Notes under the pieces: generated by a model
Seen by the model: only the letters and a program-made list of their open reading frames with translations
Told to the model about the DNA's origin: nothing
Databases searched by the model: none
Made by a program: the position numbers and the translations under genes
Part shown: positions 2,338-26,757 of the stretch, piece by piece
Layout of the letters: each line of letters opens with the position of its first letter
Position numbering within the stretch: the first letter of the stretch is position 1
Source: a virus
Strand: one strand, 5' to 3'
Virus record (IMG/VR): IMGVR_UViG_3300030406_002726
Location: 1-26,961 of that record
DNA: 26,961 nt

Positions 2338-3738
2338 TTATGAGTAGCCGATCCCTGTGGAGGTAGCCGCCCTCGTAGCAGATGTAGTTGATGTGCCTGT
2401 GAGCTTGCTTCTCTTGCCGCCGTACAAAGAGTATAGCTGAGCAGCTAAGTTTGCAGCCTCACTAGCCCCTATGTCTGACTCTATCACCCCAAACCTGTAA
2501 AGCTGGATTCGCTGTGTGCTGCTTACTGTTCCAACCTCTCCTATCGAACCTAAAATTAAATCACCATCCGTTCTAAAGTCAGAGCTGTTTGTGAGGCTAG
2601 GGTCTAACTCAAGGGTTTTTGCGGGCAGTTTGCCAACAATATCTCCGTTCCTATTGTGCAAAAACATGTTACCAACTCTATCTCTGCGAATAATGAAGAC
2701 GTGGTTTGCATCATAATCTTTAGCGTCGGGATCAGGGTCTGGGAAAGCAAAAGACTTAGTTCCATCTTCTGTAGATGTGGTGTCTACAAAGGCTGGATAT
2801 CCCGTTAAAATAGTAGCGTTACCAAGGGCAGCAGAGTCTGTTTTGCTGTGTCTCACAGCAAATATATTTCTGCTTTGACGCATAGTATTGGTCGAATCAA
2901 ACTTGCCATTGTCAGTAGGGACACCACCAAAACCAAATCCGCCACCACCAAGATCCCCGTACAAAGCTCCGATGCCATAAGTAGCGCTACCAGCAAGGCC
3001 ATTTAGATTTAAGGCTACGTAAATAGTGTAATCTTCTCTTATGGTAAGAGCGGTGTCCAGCAGAAAAGAGTTGGTGGTCCCAACTATAACAGCCGTCTTG
3101 ATTAATGTGTCATCTGAAGCGCTAGTTATAGTATCGGTATCCCCAAGATCGTTCGTAAGGTTGTGAGCAAAGCCCCCCGTACCTGAGTTCAACCAGGAAC
3201 CATTGGCATTCCCATTTGTTTGATCTAACGTTTCGTGATTGTAATCAACAACAGGCAGATCATTAAAGAAAATACCAGCTATTGAGTTCTGGAAAGTCTT
3301 TGCATCTCCTCCAACAGAAGGCTGTTTACTTGTCGTTCTTACAGGAGCAGAAGAAATAGAAGGGAGAATGTCGTTGACGTCCTCAACAACAGCCTCTCTA
3401 AAGGTAGACTCACTAGATACCACATCAAACTTCATGATGTTCTTAGGCGTGTTTCTAGATATGAAGTTTACGATGCTCTCTATTAGGCTCGCTTCTTCAC
3501 CTTGTTTACAAGAGACCGTTATGGTTGTCTTGAGTAATGACTCTCCCTGCTCCAAAGAAGACTCGTCAAAACCATTACAGTCCTTGAAGGTGAACTTAAC
3601 TCTTCCGAGCTCAGAAGTAATAAACGTCAGATTTTCAGAAGGTATCGCTATAGTGCTTACCCCAACACCCGTGTCAGAAAATGAGGCACTGCTTGGAGAC
3701 TCTGCCTCTCTACGAAAAAAGAAAAACTTTCTCATCAA
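2338..3738 (-). CDS. Virion protein with C-terminal LamG/concanavalin-like domain
   Basis: 466 residues. About residues 1-130 look like a small beta/alpha virion-attachment domain with Lys/Glu-rich strands. From about residue 145 there is a lectin-type jelly-roll pattern: YTIYVALNLNG strand, FAVRHSK, a HVFIIRRDRVGNMFLHNRNG strand pair, then DLILGSIGEV and the closing segment IQLYRFGVIESDIGASEAANLAAQLYSLYG. The last segment is the classic end of LamG/pentraxin-like modules. A Gly-rich insert (GGGGFGFGG) sits in a loop. Probably a glycan-binding fibre, spike or capsid-decoration protein. Its start overlaps the stop of the upstream 105-residue gene by 4 nt (ATGA). Exact location on the virion is not shown by the sequence. 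Confidence 0.8.
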   Translation of the reverse strand: MMRKFFFFRREAESPSSASFSDTGVGVSTIAIPSENLTFITSELGRVKFTFKDCNGFDESSLEQGESLLKTTITVSCKQGEEASLIESIVNFISRNTPKNIMKFDVVSSESTFREAVVEDVNDILPSISSAPVRTTSKQPSVGGDAKTFQNSIAGIFFNDLPVVDYNHETLDQTNGNANGSWLNSGTGGFAHNLTNDLGDTDTITSASDDTLIKTAVIVGTTNSFLLDTALTIREDYTIYVALNLNGLAGSATYGIGALYGDLGGGGFGFGGVPTDNGKFDSTNTMRQSRNIFAVRHSKTDSAALGNATILTGYPAFVDTTSTEDGTKSFAFPDPDPDAKDYDANHVFIIRRDRVGNMFLHNRNGDIVGKLPAKTLELDPSLTNSSDFRTDGDLILGSIGEVGTVSSTQRIQLYRFGVIESDIGASEAANLAAQLYSLYGGKRSKLTGTSTTSATRAATSTGIGYS

Positions 3739-6258: not shown

Positions 6259-7707
6259 TTAACCCTTAATCAACACGTGCTGGTTTGCAGCGCGAACGCA
6301 AAGAGCAATCTCAGATCTGTAGTGGAATACAGCCTGGTCAGTTCCAGCATCGCCGTTATTGTTGTGACCCAATACACCGCCACCAGTTACCCAGTGCTCC
6401 ATCTCACGAGAGTATCCGTTTGCCTCCTTGTAGTACATAGACAAAGCAGGTACAGATGCACCGCTTCTTGCGTCAGCTACAGTTGACATTGGCACCATCG
6501 CCGCTTGAATGAAGTTCTTTGATATTCCAGCACCCAACATGGTTGGATCGTTCAACAATCTCCAGTCGTGCTTGTGGAAAGTGTAACCACCACGAGTGAA
6601 GCTCTTGAATCCGAGCTGTACTGCCATGTCTGGGCTGTTCTGGAATGCACCGAACTGAGCTGGCAAACCAGCAGTAACGCCAGTAGCAATACCAGCTGCG
6701 AGCATGTCGTCGATAGCCAAGTCTTGCTTTCTGTTTACGTACATAGCGTACTCAGAAGGAGCGCCTTGCTTGTCAAGCTCAACGATGATATCATCAAATT
6801 CAGCAAAGCTATCAAGAGCGTTTGTTCCAGCGCTAGAAACATTGATGCCTCTGTTTTCAATAGCAGAGAAATAACCTTCAGATCCTGGAAGAGCATTATC
6901 TAACGCCAATCCAGCACTGCCAGTTCTTTTCTCCCCCAACAGCATCATGAGCTCACGCTTATCTTCGAAACGCTTACGTGCTTCAGCCTCACCGTACATG
7001 AACCATCTGAAGTCGCCGTTACCCATGTTTACGTAACCGATGTTTGTCGCTTGAGAACCATTTACTTCGTAGCGATCCTTAACAATCATGTATGGGTTTA
7101 CGTAACGAACCAAACCTGGATCAACAAACCCAGTTGGTTGATTGGTTCCTTGAGCGTAAATATTTCCTAATACAATCAAGTTAGCCGTGCTAGTATAATC
7201 AGCAGCAACGATTGATGTATTGTCCATCTTTACCAAAACAGCAGCAGAAGGAGAAGACGTAGAAGTAGTCGCTCCACCAGCCTGAACGATAAATCTCGTG
7301 CCAGTGTCTGCATCCATAACCACATCATTCTTCTGAACGTTAGCAGAGAAAGCGTGGCTTGAGCTTACAGAAATGCTTGCTCCAGTTCCGCTTAGAGATA
7401 CGTTCTCATAGACTCTGTGACGACGACCCTCTTCCCACCATTCGATTTGGTCGGAAGATCCACCGTTGTTTAAAGCTCCAGTGAGCTTCAAAAATCCTGT
7501 CAATCCTTGATCACCATACGTCTTCACCAGGTCGGGCATAATGTCCTCCTTGGTTACTTTAATAAGCTCGTCAATAGTTGTGTAACTGTCAGGGGTGAGC
7601 TTAAACCCTCTTGACAGTTTGGTTGCCTTTACCTGCTTATCCGATACACTCAGGGTGTTATCGATATTCGGGATATCGGTACCTCTAGTTGCTCCAATAG
7701 TAGCCAT
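6259..7707 (-). CDS. Major capsid protein (HK97-type, probable)
   Basis: 482 residues. It lies directly downstream of an acidic scaffold-like gene and among decoration-type genes, the usual place of the major capsid protein. The N-terminal arm (about residues 1-60) is followed by TKEDIMPDLVKTYGDQGLTGFLKLTG and IEWWEEGRRHRVYENV, then an Ala/Ser-rich beta region, a long helical spine-like segment (GEAEARKRFEDKRELMMLLGEKRTG, near residues 240-265), and a C-terminal part with FTRGGYTFHKHDWRLL. Length of about 480 residues fits capsid proteins of crAss-like phages, which carry an HK97 fold. The fold call is inference from context, length and composition; mass spectrometry or structure prediction would settle it. 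Confidence 0.8.
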   Translation of the reverse strand: MATIGATRGTDIPNIDNTLSVSDKQVKATKLSRGFKLTPDSYTTIDELIKVTKEDIMPDLVKTYGDQGLTGFLKLTGALNNGGSSDQIEWWEEGRRHRVYENVSLSGTGASISVSSSHAFSANVQKNDVVMDADTGTRFIVQAGGATTSTSSPSAAVLVKMDNTSIVAADYTSTANLIVLGNIYAQGTNQPTGFVDPGLVRYVNPYMIVKDRYEVNGSQATNIGYVNMGNGDFRWFMYGEAEARKRFEDKRELMMLLGEKRTGSAGLALDNALPGSEGYFSAIENRGINVSSAGTNALDSFAEFDDIIVELDKQGAPSEYAMYVNRKQDLAIDDMLAAGIATGVTAGLPAQFGAFQNSPDMAVQLGFKSFTRGGYTFHKHDWRLLNDPTMLGAGISKNFIQAAMVPMSTVADARSGASVPALSMYYKEANGYSREMEHWVTGGGVLGHNNNGDAGTDQAVFHYRSEIALCVRAANQHVLIKG

Positions 7708-7719
7708 AATTATCTAATG

Positions 7720-8799
7720 TTAAATGTTAAATGTAAGCCCTCCGCGTTGTCTTAATAGTTGTTTGACTTGGTTCGCAAGAGGGTTCTCTTGTTGGTTTTG
7801 ATTCCCAGTAGGAACGGTGTCCGTTGAGACATTAGACGCTGTGTCCACAAGTGTTCTTTGTCCGTCACCCAATCCTCTGGTGTAAGCAGACTTAACAATT
7901 CTGTCAATGTTGTCAATGACAGCCATGTGAGACGAGAGCAGGTCGTAGTCCCAGCTTCCATCCTCCCTGATGTAGGGATCAAAGTACTCGTCGAGACGAG
8001 CTTGTTTGTCCTTGAGTTGATTTCTGTAGTTGTCATCCAGATTAAACTCCAAGAGGTTGTTATCACCGAGGTCAAACTCTAGACCTTCAAGGGTGTCAAC
8101 TTCTTGAGCCATGTCTGCAATCCACTGCTCATCAATCACGGACTCAATAGCTTCACTTTCGTACTCAGGAGCGGCATACCCTTGTCGGATATCCTCAATG
8201 CTCTGTCGAGCCTTGTCTCCGTCCATCTTCATTTGAAGCTTGGCAAGATTAACTTCTTCCTCTGAGTAGAGGTCGCTATCAACCTTGTATTTACTGTTAA
8301 CGAGCAAGTTGAGCTCATCTAAAGAAAGGTTAGGATACTCATTCGACATCTGAATGCGAATGGCTGTCATGTCATCCATACCCTCTGGATTCAATGACTG
8401 GAACCTAAACCAATCTTCTGGTGCGCGGCCTGTTTCCTCTACAAACCGAGCGATAGCTTCGACTCTTTCGTCAACTTCATAATCTTCTTCGTACAAGTCA
8501 TCGAGCGAGGTGATCTCCTCACCAGTCATTTCGCTGAGGTACTCAAACACAGCTGACTGTAGTTGTTCTTCGCTGTATTCTTCACCATCAGACACCTGCT
8601 GATCAGGCTCATCTGACATGACTTGTTGGTCTGCCTCTGCGGCATATTCTTCTTGAAACTGAGGCTGTTCTTCAACAGCTTCTTGCGTTTCTACTTCAGG
8701 TGATTCTACCTGTTCTGTTCCTTCGGTTGCAGAAGCAGCAAGGTCCTCAACATTGTTGAAGACCTCAAATCCTGCAACGGTTTCGTTGTTCTCTTCCAT
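7720..8799 (-). CDS. Putative capsid scaffolding protein
   Basis: 359 residues, strongly acidic: the first 130 residues are Glu/Asp/Gln-rich (EEQPQFQEEYAAEADQQV, EEYSEEQLQSAVFEYLSEM). Long helices follow, and the C-terminus turns basic and short (NQVKQLLRQRGGLTFNI), as in scaffolds that grip the capsid protein with a C-terminal helix. It is immediately upstream of the capsid gene with a 12-nt gap. The A/T-rich leader AATTAAATAAA before the ATG, without a Shine-Dalgarno sequence, is typical of this phage. No protease signature is present in it or nearby. It could instead be an internal virion protein; position, charge and predicted helicity favour scaffold. Confidence 0.7.
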   Translation of the reverse strand: MEENNETVAGFEVFNNVEDLAASATEGTEQVESPEVETQEAVEEQPQFQEEYAAEADQQVMSDEPDQQVSDGEEYSEEQLQSAVFEYLSEMTGEEITSLDDLYEEDYEVDERVEAIARFVEETGRAPEDWFRFQSLNPEGMDDMTAIRIQMSNEYPNLSLDELNLLVNSKYKVDSDLYSEEEVNLAKLQMKMDGDKARQSIEDIRQGYAAPEYESEAIESVIDEQWIADMAQEVDTLEGLEFDLGDNNLLEFNLDDNYRNQLKDKQARLDEYFDPYIREDGSWDYDLLSSHMAVIDNIDRIVKSAYTRGLGDGQRTLVDTASNVSTDTVPTGNQNQQENPLANQVKQLLRQRGGLTFNI

Positions 8800-10061: not shown

Positions 10062-10268
10062 TTATTTTTTCTTACCCTTCTTGGCTCTAATCTTTGCTGC
10101 CTCTCGTTTTCCGAAGTCGCTCTTCACCCTAGCCATGGCCCAAGCATGTTGAGAAACTTTAGGTCTATTTCCAGAAGACATATAGGCAGCAAGACCTCGG
10201 CGATACACTTCTTTTTGTGCAGCGCTAAGGCCAGCCATCCCACCCTTTTTTAGCTTCTTGACTTTCAT
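10062..10268 (-). CDS. Small Lys-rich protein, KKGG motif
   Basis: 68 residues, MKVKKLKKGGMAGLSAAQKE then a helical core (YRRGLAAYMSSGNRPKVSQH) and a very basic end KIRAKKGKKK. Similar RGLAAYMSSGNRP-type peptides occur in other marine phages, to my recollection without assigned function. The start overlaps the TAA of the Met/Lys-rich gene upstream (TAATG). Charge and size suggest nucleic-acid contact in the virion or during packaging; this is inference. Confidence 0.72.
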   Translation of the reverse strand: MKVKKLKKGGMAGLSAAQKEVYRRGLAAYMSSGNRPKVSQHAWAMARVKSDFGKREAAKIRAKKGKKK

Positions 10269-10495
10269 TACATTCCGAGCATTTTCTTAGCTCGTGCTCT
10301 CTGCTTTGGGTCTTTCAACAAAGCTTGCATCAAGCTACCGCCATCCTTAAACGTCTTACCGCCGTACATGTACATAGGCATCTTGTGCTTGCCTCCATGC
10401 TTCATCATCATAGGCTTCTTCATCATGCCACCGCCTGGCATCTTCTTGACTTTCATCTTTCCGCCCATCATCATTTTTTTCTTACCGTGATCCAT
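10268..10495 (-). CDS. Met/Lys/Gly-rich low-complexity peptide
   Basis: 75 residues, of unusual composition: Met, Lys, Gly and His dominate the first 50 residues, with five Gly-Gly sites in contexts MMMGGKM, MPGGGMM, KHGGKHK, MYGGKTF and KDGGSLM. The C-terminal 25 residues (LMQALLKDPKQRARAKKMLGM) form a plausible basic amphipathic helix. No known family. The frame is confirmed by coupled TAATG overlap with the downstream gene. Function unknown; the repeated GG sites are shared with neighbouring basic genes and with the gene at 25722. Confidence 0.68.
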   Translation of the reverse strand: MDHGKKKMMMGGKMKVKKMPGGGMMKKPMMMKHGGKHKMPMYMYGGKTFKDGGSLMQALLKDPKQRARAKKMLGM

Positions 10496-10513
10496 AGTTA
10501 TATTTTTTAAAGG

Positions 10514-11035
10514 TTATATCTTATCTCTTTGTGCCATGAGCCTTTTAAGCCTAGCGGCTACAGCAGGAGGGAAGCCCTTCTTCTGTCTTTTAGCTTTTGT
10601 CCCTCTGTGCTTCTTGTATATCTCGCTAATCTGTTGCATTAGCTGCTTTCTCTTGCCTACGTCAGCGCTACCACGAGTATACTTCGGGTTGAACTTCATC
10701 CCCTTTTTTGCCGATGGAGCAAGACTAGAAAGAAAAAATCTAGTCCCACCTCCTGGTAGATTGTCTATCTCAAAGTTTCGTGTTTCATTAAATCCCTTTA
10801 GATCTAAAGCGTCTCGGCCAGCATCTTTATTTAAAACACGAGCAAAAGCTTTTCTTGCCTGATCTCTAGGCATATCAAAATCAACGTAATCTTTGTTGCC
10901 AAAGTCTACATTTCCACTCATTTTAATAGGCTTAATCTTTTTAGTTCTGCCTCCTTTTTCCATAGACTTAGGTTTCTTACCCGCTTTCTTCATAGCGATA
11001 GCGATCGCTGCTTGCTGTGCTGGATTCTTTGCCAT
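10514..11035 (-). CDS. Basic protein of the KKGG cluster
   Basis: 173 residues from the ATG at 11033-11035 (MAKNPAQQAAIAIAMKKAGKK). A GTG one codon earlier is possible but the ATG overlaps the upstream TGA as ATGA, which favours it. Residues 25-35 contain SMEKGGRTKK. The middle (VDFDMPRDQARKAFARVLNKDAGRDAL) looks like a folded domain with helices and acidic strands, and the C-terminus is strongly basic (KKHRGTKAKRQKKGFPPAVAARLKRLM). Likely virion or packaging-associated by location between fibre and capsid genes; no family recognised. Confidence 0.75.
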   Translation of the reverse strand: MAKNPAQQAAIAIAMKKAGKKPKSMEKGGRTKKIKPIKMSGNVDFGNKDYVDFDMPRDQARKAFARVLNKDAGRDALDLKGFNETRNFEIDNLPGGGTRFFLSSLAPSAKKGMKFNPKYTRGSADVGKRKQLMQQISEIYKKHRGTKAKRQKKGFPPAVAARLKRLMAQRDKI

Positions 11036-11229
11036 CACTTCTTCTTTGGGTGGTCAGCCATTTTGAACGTAGCCTTCTTCACAGCACCAGGATGTGGCAC
11101 GTAGTCGCCCTTCATGAGATAGTATCTGCCGCCTTCCTCCATCCAGTGAAAGCCCTTCGGAGGATCGATAGACATCTTGCGGCTTGTCACGGTGAACTTC
11201 CCGCCTTTCTTATACTTAATAGCTTTCAT
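11035..11229 (-). CDS. Small basic KKGG protein
   Basis: 64 residues from the ATG at 11227-11229: MKAIKYKKGGKFTVTSRKM, then GFHWMEEGGRYYLMKGDY. A GTG two codons earlier is in frame, but the ATG overlaps the upstream TAA (TAATG) like its neighbours. Contains two Gly-Gly sites (KKGGKF, EEGGRY). Its TGA overlaps the next ATG. Unknown function; one of five contiguous small Lys-rich genes. Confidence 0.72.
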   Translation of the reverse strand: MKAIKYKKGGKFTVTSRKMSIDPPKGFHWMEEGGRYYLMKGDYVPHPGAVKKATFKMADHPKKK

Positions 11230-11522
11230 TACCACTTAGACTTATTGGCCCAGTACGCTGCACTCATTTTGCCCTTAGCGATATTGCGTCTATGTCTAGC
11301 CTTGAAGCTGGCTCTCTTTTTCTTCATCCTGTCGCTCTCTCCAGCTTTTGGCTTACCCGCTGTCTTCGCACCTTGCTGACCGTAACGTATAAGCTTTACT
11401 TTGTTTCCTTCTTTGGCTAACACTATGTGAGACTTCTTGGGATGCTGTGGAGTTCTCTTGGGTTTGTTTACCCCAGATAACCCGTGCTTCTTAAGGAGGT
11501 TCTTAACTCTAGTATTAGACAT
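11229..11522 (-). CDS. Conserved phage basic protein (MKKKRASFKARH family)
   Basis: 97 residues with the block HIVLAKEGNKVKLIRYGQQG, then AGESDRMKKKRASFKARH and NIAKGKMSAAYWANKSKW. This block is strikingly conserved in many unrelated marine phages, where it is annotated as a domain of unknown function; I recall it as a DUF but do not assert the number. Very basic, no Gly-Gly motif. The ATG is 4 nt after a TACCTTTG box (11527-11534), predicting a leaderless or near-leaderless transcript that leads the basic-gene cluster. Confidence 0.82.
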   Translation of the reverse strand: MSNTRVKNLLKKHGLSGVNKPKRTPQHPKKSHIVLAKEGNKVKLIRYGQQGAKTAGKPKAGESDRMKKKRASFKARHRRNIAKGKMSAAYWANKSKW

Positions 11523-11807: not shown

Positions 11808-13187
11808 TTATGTTGAGTAATAAAATACAAATGCAGTTTGCCACCCCCCTCTATTTTCACCGATACCCCACAGGTCATTAGATGAAACAGTTCCACTAGA
11901 AACCACAGTAGGAGTGGTTACGTAAAAATTAGTGGTTCCTCCGATGCGCCCATAAGCTTCGTATCCTGCGTAAACCAGCTGATTATTCTTTCTTGCAATC
12001 ATACCAGTTGCAAAACTATAGCTGCTCAATATACCTAATCCCTGCCAGTCGCTGTCGGTTCCAATCCTTACGTGATTGTCATCTTGGGCATCATCTGTAG
12101 TTCCATCCAACGGCACGTAGTAATTGCCATCACCAGCAAAGTAGAGGTGACCACTAGTGTTTATCAGGTGGCTAAATCGATCAGTGATGGTTATGTCGGT
12201 CCAGTCAGTTTGTAGAGTGCCGCCTACCTTACCGATTTGAACAGGAATAGTCTGATCGCTAGTAATGTTACCACCCATATTCTCGTTGCTGTCCGATTTG
12301 CCCATTCCAAAAGCCCTTCCACTCTGAATAAAACCAACTACGTTTTGGCTTCCTTTTACTAAAGTAACGTTATTGTTTGTTGCCGAAACCATATTTGTTG
12401 CGTCTACTGCCGTCCATGTGGTTTGATTTCCAGACGTAGTTCCGTTTCCATTTATCCCCTCACTGTTTCGACCCGCTGTATACAAAACATTGCTCGAACC
12501 CTTGATTGCTTGCGAGTTGTATCGAGTCATGTTAACGCTCACCCAATCAGAATCTGAACCAATTTGCACAAAAGAGTTATAGACGTTTGAGGTGTCTCCT
12601 TTCCCAAGCTTTCCGTATTGATTCGCACCAATACCGTAAAGTTTGCCGCTATTAATACACAGAGCGGATGTATCTGAAGTTGTAACATCCGTCCAACCAG
12701 TGTCAGAGTCTCCAACCCCAGTAACCTGATTCCAGGTTCTTGGGTCAGAGTTTGTTCCTGCGCCAGAAGAATTCCCTCCATAAATGGTGCTGGTGGAAAT
12801 CCTCCAGAGTTTTCCTGCATTATCTATGATCCAAGAGCTATACCTACCATAAACGACTTTGGTGGGGGTACCCATACCTGCTGGCAAGGTGTCTGCAATC
12901 ATAACTAGCATACCGTCAACATCTGACTGTACTTGAAACTTTGTGTCCGTGCCCAGAATGTATCCAGGGAAGTTTTCGCTGTTGCTTTGTCTTCCGCTGG
13001 TAGTAGGATTAGCCGCATTGTAGGCTTGACCGCCCCTTTTAATTAATCCCGTTGAAGGGACAGTCTCTGTGTATGTACCCGTTCCAGCCACAGGATCAAA
13101 AGCCCCGCCAGAAACTGCAATGTCTTGTCCGTTTATTGATGCTATATTACCCACGTCTACTCCGTTATGTGATGCTATGTTTGGCAT
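11808..13187 (-). CDS. RCC1-like beta-propeller adsorption protein
   Basis: 459 residues. The N-terminus (MPNIASHNGVDVGNIASINGQ) is a short attachment tag of the kind seen in phage fibres. From about residue 90 there are repeated RCC1-type blades: YGRYSSWIIDNAGKLW, WTDVTTSDTSALCINSGKLYGIGANQYGKLGKGD, WVSVNMTRYNSQAIKGSSNVLYTAGRNSEG, WTDITITDRFSHLINTSGHLYFAGD and YSFATGMIARKNNQLVYAGYEAYGRIGG. Each has the WxxV...S.A....G.LY..G.N..G.LG pattern of RCC1/BNR-like propellers. In phages this fold forms receptor-binding tips. The gene lies 2 nt after the collagen-like fibre gene, so the two probably form one adsorption assembly. Confidence 0.82.
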   Translation of the reverse strand: MPNIASHNGVDVGNIASINGQDIAVSGGAFDPVAGTGTYTETVPSTGLIKRGGQAYNAANPTTSGRQSNSENFPGYILGTDTKFQVQSDVDGMLVMIADTLPAGMGTPTKVVYGRYSSWIIDNAGKLWRISTSTIYGGNSSGAGTNSDPRTWNQVTGVGDSDTGWTDVTTSDTSALCINSGKLYGIGANQYGKLGKGDTSNVYNSFVQIGSDSDWVSVNMTRYNSQAIKGSSNVLYTAGRNSEGINGNGTTSGNQTTWTAVDATNMVSATNNNVTLVKGSQNVVGFIQSGRAFGMGKSDSNENMGGNITSDQTIPVQIGKVGGTLQTDWTDITITDRFSHLINTSGHLYFAGDGNYYVPLDGTTDDAQDDNHVRIGTDSDWQGLGILSSYSFATGMIARKNNQLVYAGYEAYGRIGGTTNFYVTTPTVVSSGTVSSNDLWGIGENRGGWQTAFVFYYST

Positions 13188-24585: not shown

Positions 24586-24593
24586 CAAATTTA
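24586..24593 (-). promoter_or_regulatory. Bacteroidetes -7 promoter box TAAATTTG
   Basis: Minus strand TAAATTTG, exact TAnnTTTG, 30 nt upstream of the ATG at 24555; it overlaps the stop codon of the upstream 44-residue gene. Confidence 0.45.
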
Positions 24594-24725
24594 TCTTCCT
24601 TGTCCTCGGTAAGATTTCTTGTAGTTTTTGCTGACTTTGTTGCTGGACGTCTTCGTCTTAGCGTGGACCCCTGGGCGTTTTTTCTTGCTGTCGCCAGGAG
24701 CGTAGTTAAATACTTGTTTAGGCAT
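24591..24725 (-). CDS. Small basic conserved phage peptide (KKKRPGVHAKTK type)
   Basis: 44 residues from ATG 24723-24725: MPKQVFNYAPGDSKKKRPGV, HAKTKTSSNKVSKNYKKSYRG and QGR. The KKKRPGVHAKTK...SKNYKKxYRGQG block is widespread in marine phages, usually in the structural or lysis region, with no known role. The ATG is within the last codons of the endolysin gene (8-nt overlap), so it is probably translated by coupling. Strongly cationic; could bind RNA, DNA or the capsid interior. Confidence 0.82.
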   Translation of the reverse strand: MPKQVFNYAPGDSKKKRPGVHAKTKTSSNKVSKNYKKSYRGQGR

Positions 24726-25257: not shown

Positions 25258-25722
25258 TCAGCTAGCTATAAATACTTCGACCGTAACGTCATTGCTGCTA
25301 GGATCTACGATGATGCTTTCTAAGTCTGTTAGTGTAGTTACGATAGTTGCTGCGTCGTCATCCACAGCGATGCCATCGTGAACAGCCCCCATAATAAAGC
25401 TCTTCCCAGCCTCCAAGAGCACCGTGCAGGAAGAGTCAGCTGTGCCGTTCTCTGCGGTAGAGATCTGAAGCGAAAGATTCACAGAATTAGAGGCGTCGAG
25501 GTTTGTGACGCGCAAGTACTTAACGTCTTGCAGGTCCAGAGCTCCATCCTGCGTATTGGTGCCAGCCTGGAACACAGCCACAGTAGTGTCTACACTGGCG
25601 GGGCAGGTGACAACTCTCTTGAAGGACTGCGTAACAGAGGCAATGCTAACGGTGTTTACACCACCTTGTTGAGCACCATTGAGCGTGAGCTCTTCTTTGA
25701 TAGAGACTGTTAGTACTCCCAT
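25258..25722 (-). CDS. Beta-rich virion protein
   Basis: 154 residues: MGVLTVSIKEELTLNGAQQG, KYLRVTNLDASNSVNLSLQIST, LLEAGKSFIMGAVHDGIAV, and SSNDVTVEVFIAS at the end. The LRVTNLD...VNLSLQ...LEAGKSFIMG strand series resembles the small beta-sandwich proteins at 9203-10029, so it is probably a decoration or tail protein. Its ATG overlaps the upstream TAA (TAATG). Confidence 0.78.
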   Translation of the reverse strand: MGVLTVSIKEELTLNGAQQGGVNTVSIASVTQSFKRVVTCPASVDTTVAVFQAGTNTQDGALDLQDVKYLRVTNLDASNSVNLSLQISTAENGTADSSCTVLLEAGKSFIMGAVHDGIAVDDDAATIVTTLTDLESIIVDPSSNDVTVEVFIAS

Positions 25723-26525
25723 TACTTACGTCTTAGTCTGCGCTTCTTCTTAGCTGGTACAGGGATCTTAGCCGATGACTTCTTGATAGTGCCTGGCTTT
25801 ACCTTCTTAGCCAACCCAACAACATCTGGACCCCTTGGTGTGACCTTTTCCATATTGGCGCGGGCCATTCTCTCCCCTCTAATGTAGTCTTCCATTGTTG
25901 GGCCAACTGAACCTCTTCTGAAGTTACCTTCTTCAGTCATAAGTACATCGCCTTTAAAACCTTCAGACCTTCCTCTAACAAAAGGCATATCCTTTTTAGA
26001 TTTTCCTGGGCCAGCATACACCATACCCCTTAATGGCTTTTTCTTCTTACCCTCTCCTCTCAGGTTTACGTTGGCAGTTCTTTTGACCTTACCACCGTTC
26101 TCAAGCTTTCTTCGCTTCTTTCTTCGCTTCTTTTTGTTATCTACCTCAACAGCACTCTTCTTGAGCGTCTTGTCCATGGATACACCGCTGTCGATCTTCT
26201 TAGGGGCGAGAGGAGTGAGCTTCTTCAGCTTTCTTCCAAACCTACCCATGCCTGAAATATCTTTCGGCAAACCCATGCGACCGCCCTTCTTCATCTTCTT
26301 GATCTTCTTGGCCGCCTCTCTTTCTTTCTTGGTGGCTGCTCTATCCTCAGCGTCAGTCATTCTTTTTGGTAGCCCGCCAGCAAAAGGGAGAGGAGCGAAG
26401 CCCTCACGAACGTCTCTCTTGTACGACTCTCTGTCTCTAGAGGCTTTAGATGTGTGAAGTCTTGAAGGATTTTTTTTCTTCATCTCCTTCATCTTTCCTC
26501 CACCTTGGTATTTCTTTGCTTTCAT
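25722..26525 (-). CDS. Large Lys/Arg-rich protein of the KKGG group
   Basis: 267 residues, about one third Lys or Arg. Gly-Gly sites: KYQGGGKMKE near the start, KKMKKGGRMG, KLENGGKVKR and FAGGLPKR. Basic tracts include KKRRKKRRK and a C-terminal KKKRRLRRK. It has the same KKGG motif as the small basic genes at 10.06-11.24 kb, 15 kb away. Expected to be disordered and to bind nucleic acid, possibly packed in the capsid; no family known. The ATG lies 5 nt after a TATATTTG box, predicting a nearly leaderless transcript. Confidence 0.75.
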   Translation of the reverse strand: MKAKKYQGGGKMKEMKKKNPSRLHTSKASRDRESYKRDVREGFAPLPFAGGLPKRMTDAEDRAATKKEREAAKKIKKMKKGGRMGLPKDISGMGRFGRKLKKLTPLAPKKIDSGVSMDKTLKKSAVEVDNKKKRRKKRRKLENGGKVKRTANVNLRGEGKKKKPLRGMVYAGPGKSKKDMPFVRGRSEGFKGDVLMTEEGNFRRGSVGPTMEDYIRGERMARANMEKVTPRGPDVVGLAKKVKPGTIKKSSAKIPVPAKKKRRLRRK

Positions 26526-26540: not shown

Positions 26541-26678
26541 TTATTTATTTTTTTTGTTCTTCTTAAAGAACTCTATCTGACCCAGCCTCTTTACAGCAGC
26601 TTTCTTAGTCAAGAACTTACCCAACAGCTTCCCTTTTTTGCTGCGGATCTCGTAAGTATTCTTCTTCTTGACAATCAT
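26541..26678 (-). CDS. Small basic phage protein
   Basis: 45 residues from the ATG at 26676-26678: MIVKKKNTYEIRSKKGKLLG then KFLTKKAAVKRLGQIEFFKK and a Lys/Asn end. An in-frame GTG at 26756 would add 26 residues but has no clear signal; the short form matches the size and the VKKGxxYxIRSxxGKKLGxFxTKKxAxKRLxQIEYFK pattern of many marine-phage peptides. The pattern suggests a small beta-alpha nucleic-acid-binding fold. It lies 138 nt downstream of the strong promoter at 26818-26848. Confidence 0.7.
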   Translation of the reverse strand: MIVKKKNTYEIRSKKGKLLGKFLTKKAAVKRLGQIEFFKKNKKNK

Positions 26679-26741
26679 AAGGACAGTTTTTGTGCCTATC
26701 ACAGCTATATTAGTTTGATTTACGCTTCTTAGAGTCTGTTT

Positions 26742-26757
26742 AGTGCGTCTACGCACT
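26742..26757. repeat. Near-start inverted repeat
   Basis: AGTGCGT-CT-ACGCACT: 7-bp perfect arms with a 2-bp centre. It lies in the leader between the promoter at 26818-26848 and the ATG at 26678 and could form a short hairpin or protein site. Only the symmetry is observed. Confidence 0.45.

Follow-up and report, generated by a model that had tools for sequence, protein, structure and literature searches.

Head-entry signals are known for few phages, and T4 is the model. Enzymes of the internal virion protein type travel in the virion. T4 packages ejected proteins via a 10-residue N-terminal leader, which is drawn to the T4 core (PMC9026906). Crassviruses also package ejected proteins, and their cargo of approximately 5.5 MDa is stored in the head and tail (PMC10172136). 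In cyanophage S-SCSM1, mass spectrometry of CsCl-purified virions identified 45 proteins (PMC9602691). S-SCSM1 ORF29 (517 aa), which holds RWF-, KDACY- and DUF6321-type domains in one chain, is labelled 'virion protein' in a record that applies this label to certain structural genes but leaves it off others, for example the terminases. Its presence in virions is read from this label rather than from the protein list of the paper. ORF137 of S-CREM2, which was found in virions (PMC10665884), may by its position be a second virion-detected relative of ORF29.

The locus described here is a cluster of five genes in a viral DNA window, that is, the whole stretch of 26,961 bases that was analysed (Table 1). 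Judging by the terminase and portal, the owner of the cluster is a marine phage group that is distantly related to Flavobacterium and Cellulophaga podoviruses. Among the matches listed, TerL is 40-46% identical to Flavobacterium elemo phages and the Manatee Spring podovirus, and the portal is approximately 26-32% identical to Flavobacterium, Cellulophaga, Maribacter, and Tenacibaculum phages. In the near-complete relative G001, two proteins weakly match Crassvirus muzzle families of Pfam (PF25731, 5.7e-6, below the cut-off; PF25729, 3.8e-6, just above it). The scaffold-like gene of the elemo and Manatee phages immediately follows the portal, and in the window approximately 7 kb, including the basic cluster, separates portal from scaffold. 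Near a collagen-like fibre gene, a 459-aa protein (11808-13187) carries repeats that on visual impression resemble an RCC1-type beta-propeller. One related record of 78,121 bases (G010; L088, L176) has two capsid-protein matches and two DUF5824 places with differing identities, and it is perhaps one assembly joining two related phages.

Table 1. Positions of the window features discussed in the text.
Feature	Position	Strand	Description
Window	26,961 bases		IMG/VR virus record
Major capsid protein candidate	6259..7707	-	phrog_13704 'virion structural protein', E=9.5e-110
Acidic scaffold-like protein	7720..8799	-	Net charge -64; adjoins the major capsid protein; putative role from its position before that gene
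g68, 68-aa protein	10062..10268	-	Leader MKVKKLKKGG, DUF5824 core
g68 leader GG codons	10239..10244	-	
g75, 75-aa Met/Lys/Gly repeat protein	10268..10495	-	KMMMGGKM, MPGGGMM, HGGKH, YGGKTF, KDGGSL
g174, 173-aa protein	10514..11035	-	C-terminal KFNPKYTRGS...MAQRDKI domain, internal EKGGRT
g66, 64-aa protein	11035..11229	-	Leader MKAIKYKKGG, core FHWMEEGGRYYLMKGDY; ORF opens with GTG at 11235
g66 leader GG codons (KYKKGGKF)	11200..11205	-	
g97, 97-aa basic protein	11229..11522	-	No GG tag; phrog_7595 E=3.7e-41, phrog_220 E=3.5e-7
267-aa basic protein	25722..26525	-	Leader MKAKKYQGGG and two more GG[RK] sites

An earlier note had reported five coupled genes at 10062-11522, four of them with Gly-Gly motifs, and all five reading frames are present there on the minus strand. 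The motifs that it quoted were found both in the cluster (KKGGMA, MMGGKM, EKGGRT, and KKGGKF, with the 97-aa protein as the exception) and in the 267-aa protein (KKGGRM, QGGGKM, and NGGKVK). Gene coupling is tight, with 1-nt stop/start overlaps (TAATG, TGATG, and TAATG) at three of the four junctions and one 18-nt gap. For the 66- and 174-aa ORFs, translation probably begins not at the GTG but at an ATG codon located 6 and 3 nt further downstream, respectively, which is the start that relatives have. The five proteins are strongly basic (net charge +11 to +28, pI 10.1-11.7), and the 267-aa protein has a net charge of +58. The GG[K/R/M] motif is enriched in these six proteins: it occurs eight times in the cluster, in every protein but the 97-aa one, and three times in the 267-aa protein (11 in total), and once in all other window genes (YGGKRSK, in the 466-aa gene at 2338-3738). 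Shuffling of residues within the six proteins gave a mean of 3.25 occurrences and reached at least 11 in 3 of 20,000 trials.

The same note had placed all of these genes inside structural blocks. This stands for the cluster, which lies in the late block, with the minor correction that the 267-aa gene is located near the endolysin end of the block and not among head genes; weak homologues occupy the equivalent place in three relatives (L012, L016, and L053). A 44-aa basic protein, KRPGVHAKTKTSSNK...YRGQGR (24591-24725, phrog_17967), adjoins the endolysin gene, and pelagiphage HTVC100P has a similar gene near an M15 peptidase gene. For a 71-aa basic ORF at 26541-26756, relatives suggest a true protein of approximately 44 aa with the start MIVKKKNTYEIRSKKGKLLG.

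Comparison with relatives in viral contigs (160 with the 66-aa protein as bait and 140 with the 68-aa protein) identifies the cluster as a late-gene cassette that is conserved in marine phages and modular in make-up. Small basic domains, most of them with an N-terminal leader that ends in GG, replace one another in the slot before the scaffold and capsid genes. The contents of this slot vary among g97-type, DUF6321, 'KDACY...PSAYASG', 'LKRWF...WRT', 'SARKAQ...GGGY', KFNPKYTRGS, and DUF5824 domains. The g97 protein belongs to phrog_7595, with residues 5-97 aligned to positions 4-96 of the 96-position profile, and relatives occur in 51 phage records, including SIO1, HMO-2011, S-CBS2, and CRP-1. 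DUF6321 relatives occur in 491 phage records. The g68 protein is a member of DUF5824 (PF19141; 35.2 bits, gathering cut-off 25). The C-terminal domain of g174 is kept in relatives, most of which are only approximately 89 aa long and have no GG, and g75 has GG in all 18 distinct homologues. As far as searched, the earlier note was right that no function has been described for such a set: DUF5824, DUF6321, and phrog_7595 are uncharacterised families. In the literature search, the DUF names occurred in one paper only, on an algal virus, and neither a description of a GG tag nor virion proteomics of a phage from this group was found. By sequence, g97 and g68 have no relatives among solved structures, S-SCSM1 ORF29 has insignificant matches only, and g66 weakly matches designed TPR proteins only. 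AlphaFold models were obtained for g97 (pLDDT 86.9) and g66 (pLDDT 85.5, an all-beta fold, with the first ten residues at 65), and neither matched the fold of a solved structure (best Foldseek E 0.55 and 0.68; no Z of at least 2).

Leaders are swapped between domains at GG. The commonest form is M-K-x-x-K-Y-K-K-GG, followed for example by K. Short KKGG-type leaders precede g66 (68 sequences), DUF5824 (49), KDACY (13), g75 (12), and DUF6321 (6) bodies. Four DUF5824 sequences and one sequence with the 66-aa core (L175) have a longer leader, VRNKMGYMxxGG, and a related segment occurs in gp63 of Roseobacter phage CRP-1 and in a CRP-13 gene. A Cys-rich leader is found upstream of both DUF6321 and KDACY domains, and an EF-hand-like leader upstream of both DUF5824 and SARK domains. 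An EF-hand/dockerin-like segment, FPDLTGDGKVTxADVLKGRG, was also observed as a module between GG junctions (L003, 16486-16803; L011, 13209-13601; L118). This distribution indicates that GG is the junction where leaders are exchanged. The GG itself is conserved at the protein level. Counted within the first 40 residues, it is kept in 76 of 85 distinct g66 orthologues, with 15 codon pairs, and in 57 of 70 g68 sequences, with 14 codon pairs; the surroundings of the g66 site comprise 52 distinct 15-mers. Retention despite so many codon pairs argues for selection on the protein-level GG.

The wider distribution of the leader was analysed in ten near-complete relatives and the window, where genes were called by ORF length only. 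A basic-GG leader was defined as GG within the first 24 residues preceded by two or more K/R and no more than one D/E, and 'late' refers to the strand that carries the terminase and capsid genes, not to expression. The leader is confined to late genes when genes with a homologue in another genome are considered (24/436 late against 0/195 early). For all genes, the counts are 30/527 on the late strand and 2/288 elsewhere, and for families with a tagged member 15/163 late and 2/145 early; the p-values of 1.6e-4 and 0.002 are descriptive only, because the tag pattern was written after the motif had been seen. With the first 26 residues removed, 14 groups unrelated at E<1e-3 can be distinguished among the tagged late proteins. 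The leader is also present on virion-type lytic transglycosylases, with a Pfam SLT domain in tagged proteins of G002 (907 aa), G012 (190 aa), and G003 (200 aa). Those of G002 and G012, the two covered by the PHROG scan, match phrog_342, 'internal virion protein with endolysin domain' (3.3e-12 and 2.1e-12). By association with enzymes of this type, the tag is a candidate virion label. The same two proteins also match the endolysin family phrog_669, and the tagged SLT proteins may have an endolysin role. Of a 1,752-aa protein in the relative G008, a segment of 1,302 aa carries the large polyvalent protein domain LPD38. One survey found up to 35% of polyvalent proteins to be phage-encoded and judged these likely to be packaged (PMC5512222).

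From these data, we infer packaging, a role for the tag, DNA binding, and ejection. The chances are about even that the cluster encodes swappable, late-made virion cargo of small DNA- or nucleic acid-binding proteins, which would enter the head via the basic-GG tag and would probably be ejected with the genome. Of the roles proposed in the earlier note, DNA condensation in the head and ejected cargo have gained support from extreme basicity, the late-block position, the nearby acidic scaffold-like protein, the similar N-terminal tag on SLT transglycosylases, and the cyanophage 'virion protein' with three of the same domains, whereas its Gly-Gly-specific protease has not. Under the cargo reading, the positively charged leader would be attracted by the strongly acidic core that the scaffold forms in the procapsid. 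The proposed counter-ion of the basic tags is the scaffold-like protein, whose net charge is -40 to -52 in the ten relatives, and GG would act as a flexible joint from leader to functional domain. When the scaffold exits, the basic proteins would remain with the DNA as it enters and offset some of its charge, and they would probably be ejected along with the genome. A broader proposal can be made only tentatively: in a widespread group of marine Bacteroidota phages, a portable N-terminal basic double-glycine address tag might sort many unrelated proteins, among them small DNA-binding domains, lytic enzymes, and repeat proteins, into the head, with cargo domains exchanged by recombination at the tag boundary. 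The g97 protein and most g174 proteins lack the tag and yet lie within the cassette, which counts against a tag. A head-entry tag readable from sequence would allow the listing of proteins that marine phages pack and inject, including 'unknown' genes, and could serve to load other proteins into capsids. This reading would also offer a role for the uncharacterised DUF5824, DUF6321, and phrog_7595 families.

Among the alternatives, the best surviving one, itself unlikely, takes GG as a mere flexible hinge in low-complexity Lys/Gly-rich nucleic acid-binding proteins of the KGG/RGG kind, with no targeting or processing. The very basic character of every tagged small protein agrees with a hinge, as does the g66 model, in which GG lies with low confidence in a possible beta-turn. 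However, large proteins that are less basic have the leader as well (the SLT enzymes and proteins of 328 and 536 aa), and the N-terminal position of the leader goes beyond composition, with 17 tagged proteins among 98 basic ones against 4.8 expected from composition. The absence of the leader from conserved early genes also argues against a hinge.

Rather less probable is cleavage after GG by a phage protease that removes the basic leader during head maturation. Precedents are the proteases of adenovirus and ASFV, whose Gly-Gly cleavage sites lie in precursors of the basic core or polyprotein type. Exchange of leaders exactly at GG is consistent with such cleavage, the repeated GG units of g75 would permit multiple cuts, and the leaders of T4 are indeed cleaved. 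Against this, the Pfam and PHROG scans, which covered part of the virion blocks of G001 and G008, revealed no prohead-type protease, and some g66 orthologues have KKGA in place of KKGG. The scaffold and major capsid protein are also without a conserved basic-GG site: the scaffold has no conserved GG column, and the GG columns of the capsid protein lie outside a basic-leader context, so GG cleavage shared with either of these proteins was rejected.

It is still more doubtful that these are late non-virion proteins with a role in the dying cell, where the host nucleoid or gene expression could be a target. In favour of this explanation, lysis-like and secreted genes adjoin the cassette of several relatives, and small DUF6321/DUF5824 proteins of pelagiphages are found near lysis genes. 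In contrast, the tag is shared with the virion-type SLT enzymes, and the multi-domain homologue of S-SCSM1 is annotated as a virion protein. A movable block was also seen beside the basic genes of relatives (L091, L094, L105-L118; G001, G002, G006, and G008). It comprises a secreted-looking protein of 700-800 aa, whose G008 copy has the type IX secretion sorting domain PF18962, a protein of approximately 346 aa whose start is signal-like, and two smaller proteins, one of 94 aa and one of 112/121 aa that weakly resembles thioredoxin. Finally, although leaders and domains have evidently recombined, a motif acting at the DNA level, either as a recombination linker or as an internal ribosome-binding site (Lys-Gly-Gly codons resemble Shine-Dalgarno), is extremely improbable and was rejected on the codon and 15-mer diversity at the GG sites.

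The cargo reading can be set against four described systems. The T7-type internal virion protein with a transglycosylase (phrog_342) is matched by the tagged SLT proteins of G002 and G012, whereas the small basic cluster proteins have no transglycosylase domain. The crassvirus cargo proteins C1 and C2 (phi-crAss001 gp45 and gp46) also come from Bacteroidota phages with ejected capsid cargo. The gp45 protein (C1; L288, 30388-32916) starts with MAKKKIKRRGKMPPNIFDTGG, in which a basic stretch is followed by GG as in the tag; this is a single suggestive resemblance, and a scan for gp45 relatives returned only crAss001 itself and one fragment. The idea that the tag is a general crass-like feature was rejected, with only one to two pattern matches each in elemo, Manatee, crAss001, and phi14:2, of which only that of gp45 is on a cargo protein. 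The cargo of the isolated relatives elemo, Manatee Spring phage, and phi14:2 carries no such tag; therefore, the tag is not needed in general. Crassvirus cargo also differs in being large, and a small basic cassette of this kind is not known there. The T4-like cyanophage multi-domain basic proteins (S-SCSM1 ORF29; phrog_727 and phrog_3477) share the KDACY and DUF6321 domains, but they form one long chain rather than separate genes and lack the KKGG leader. Similar to T4 IPI-IPIII with their capsid targeting sequence, the locus has one short N-terminal leader type common to otherwise different small late proteins, as found across 14 body families and in the leader-domain matrix, and co-packaging with DNA is proposed for the cluster proteins as well. 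No gp21-type protease was found in the incomplete Pfam and PHROG scans of the G001 and G008 virion blocks. The leaders of T4 are cut by gp21 after L/I-x-E (PMC9026906), whereas that of the cluster is basic and ends in GG.
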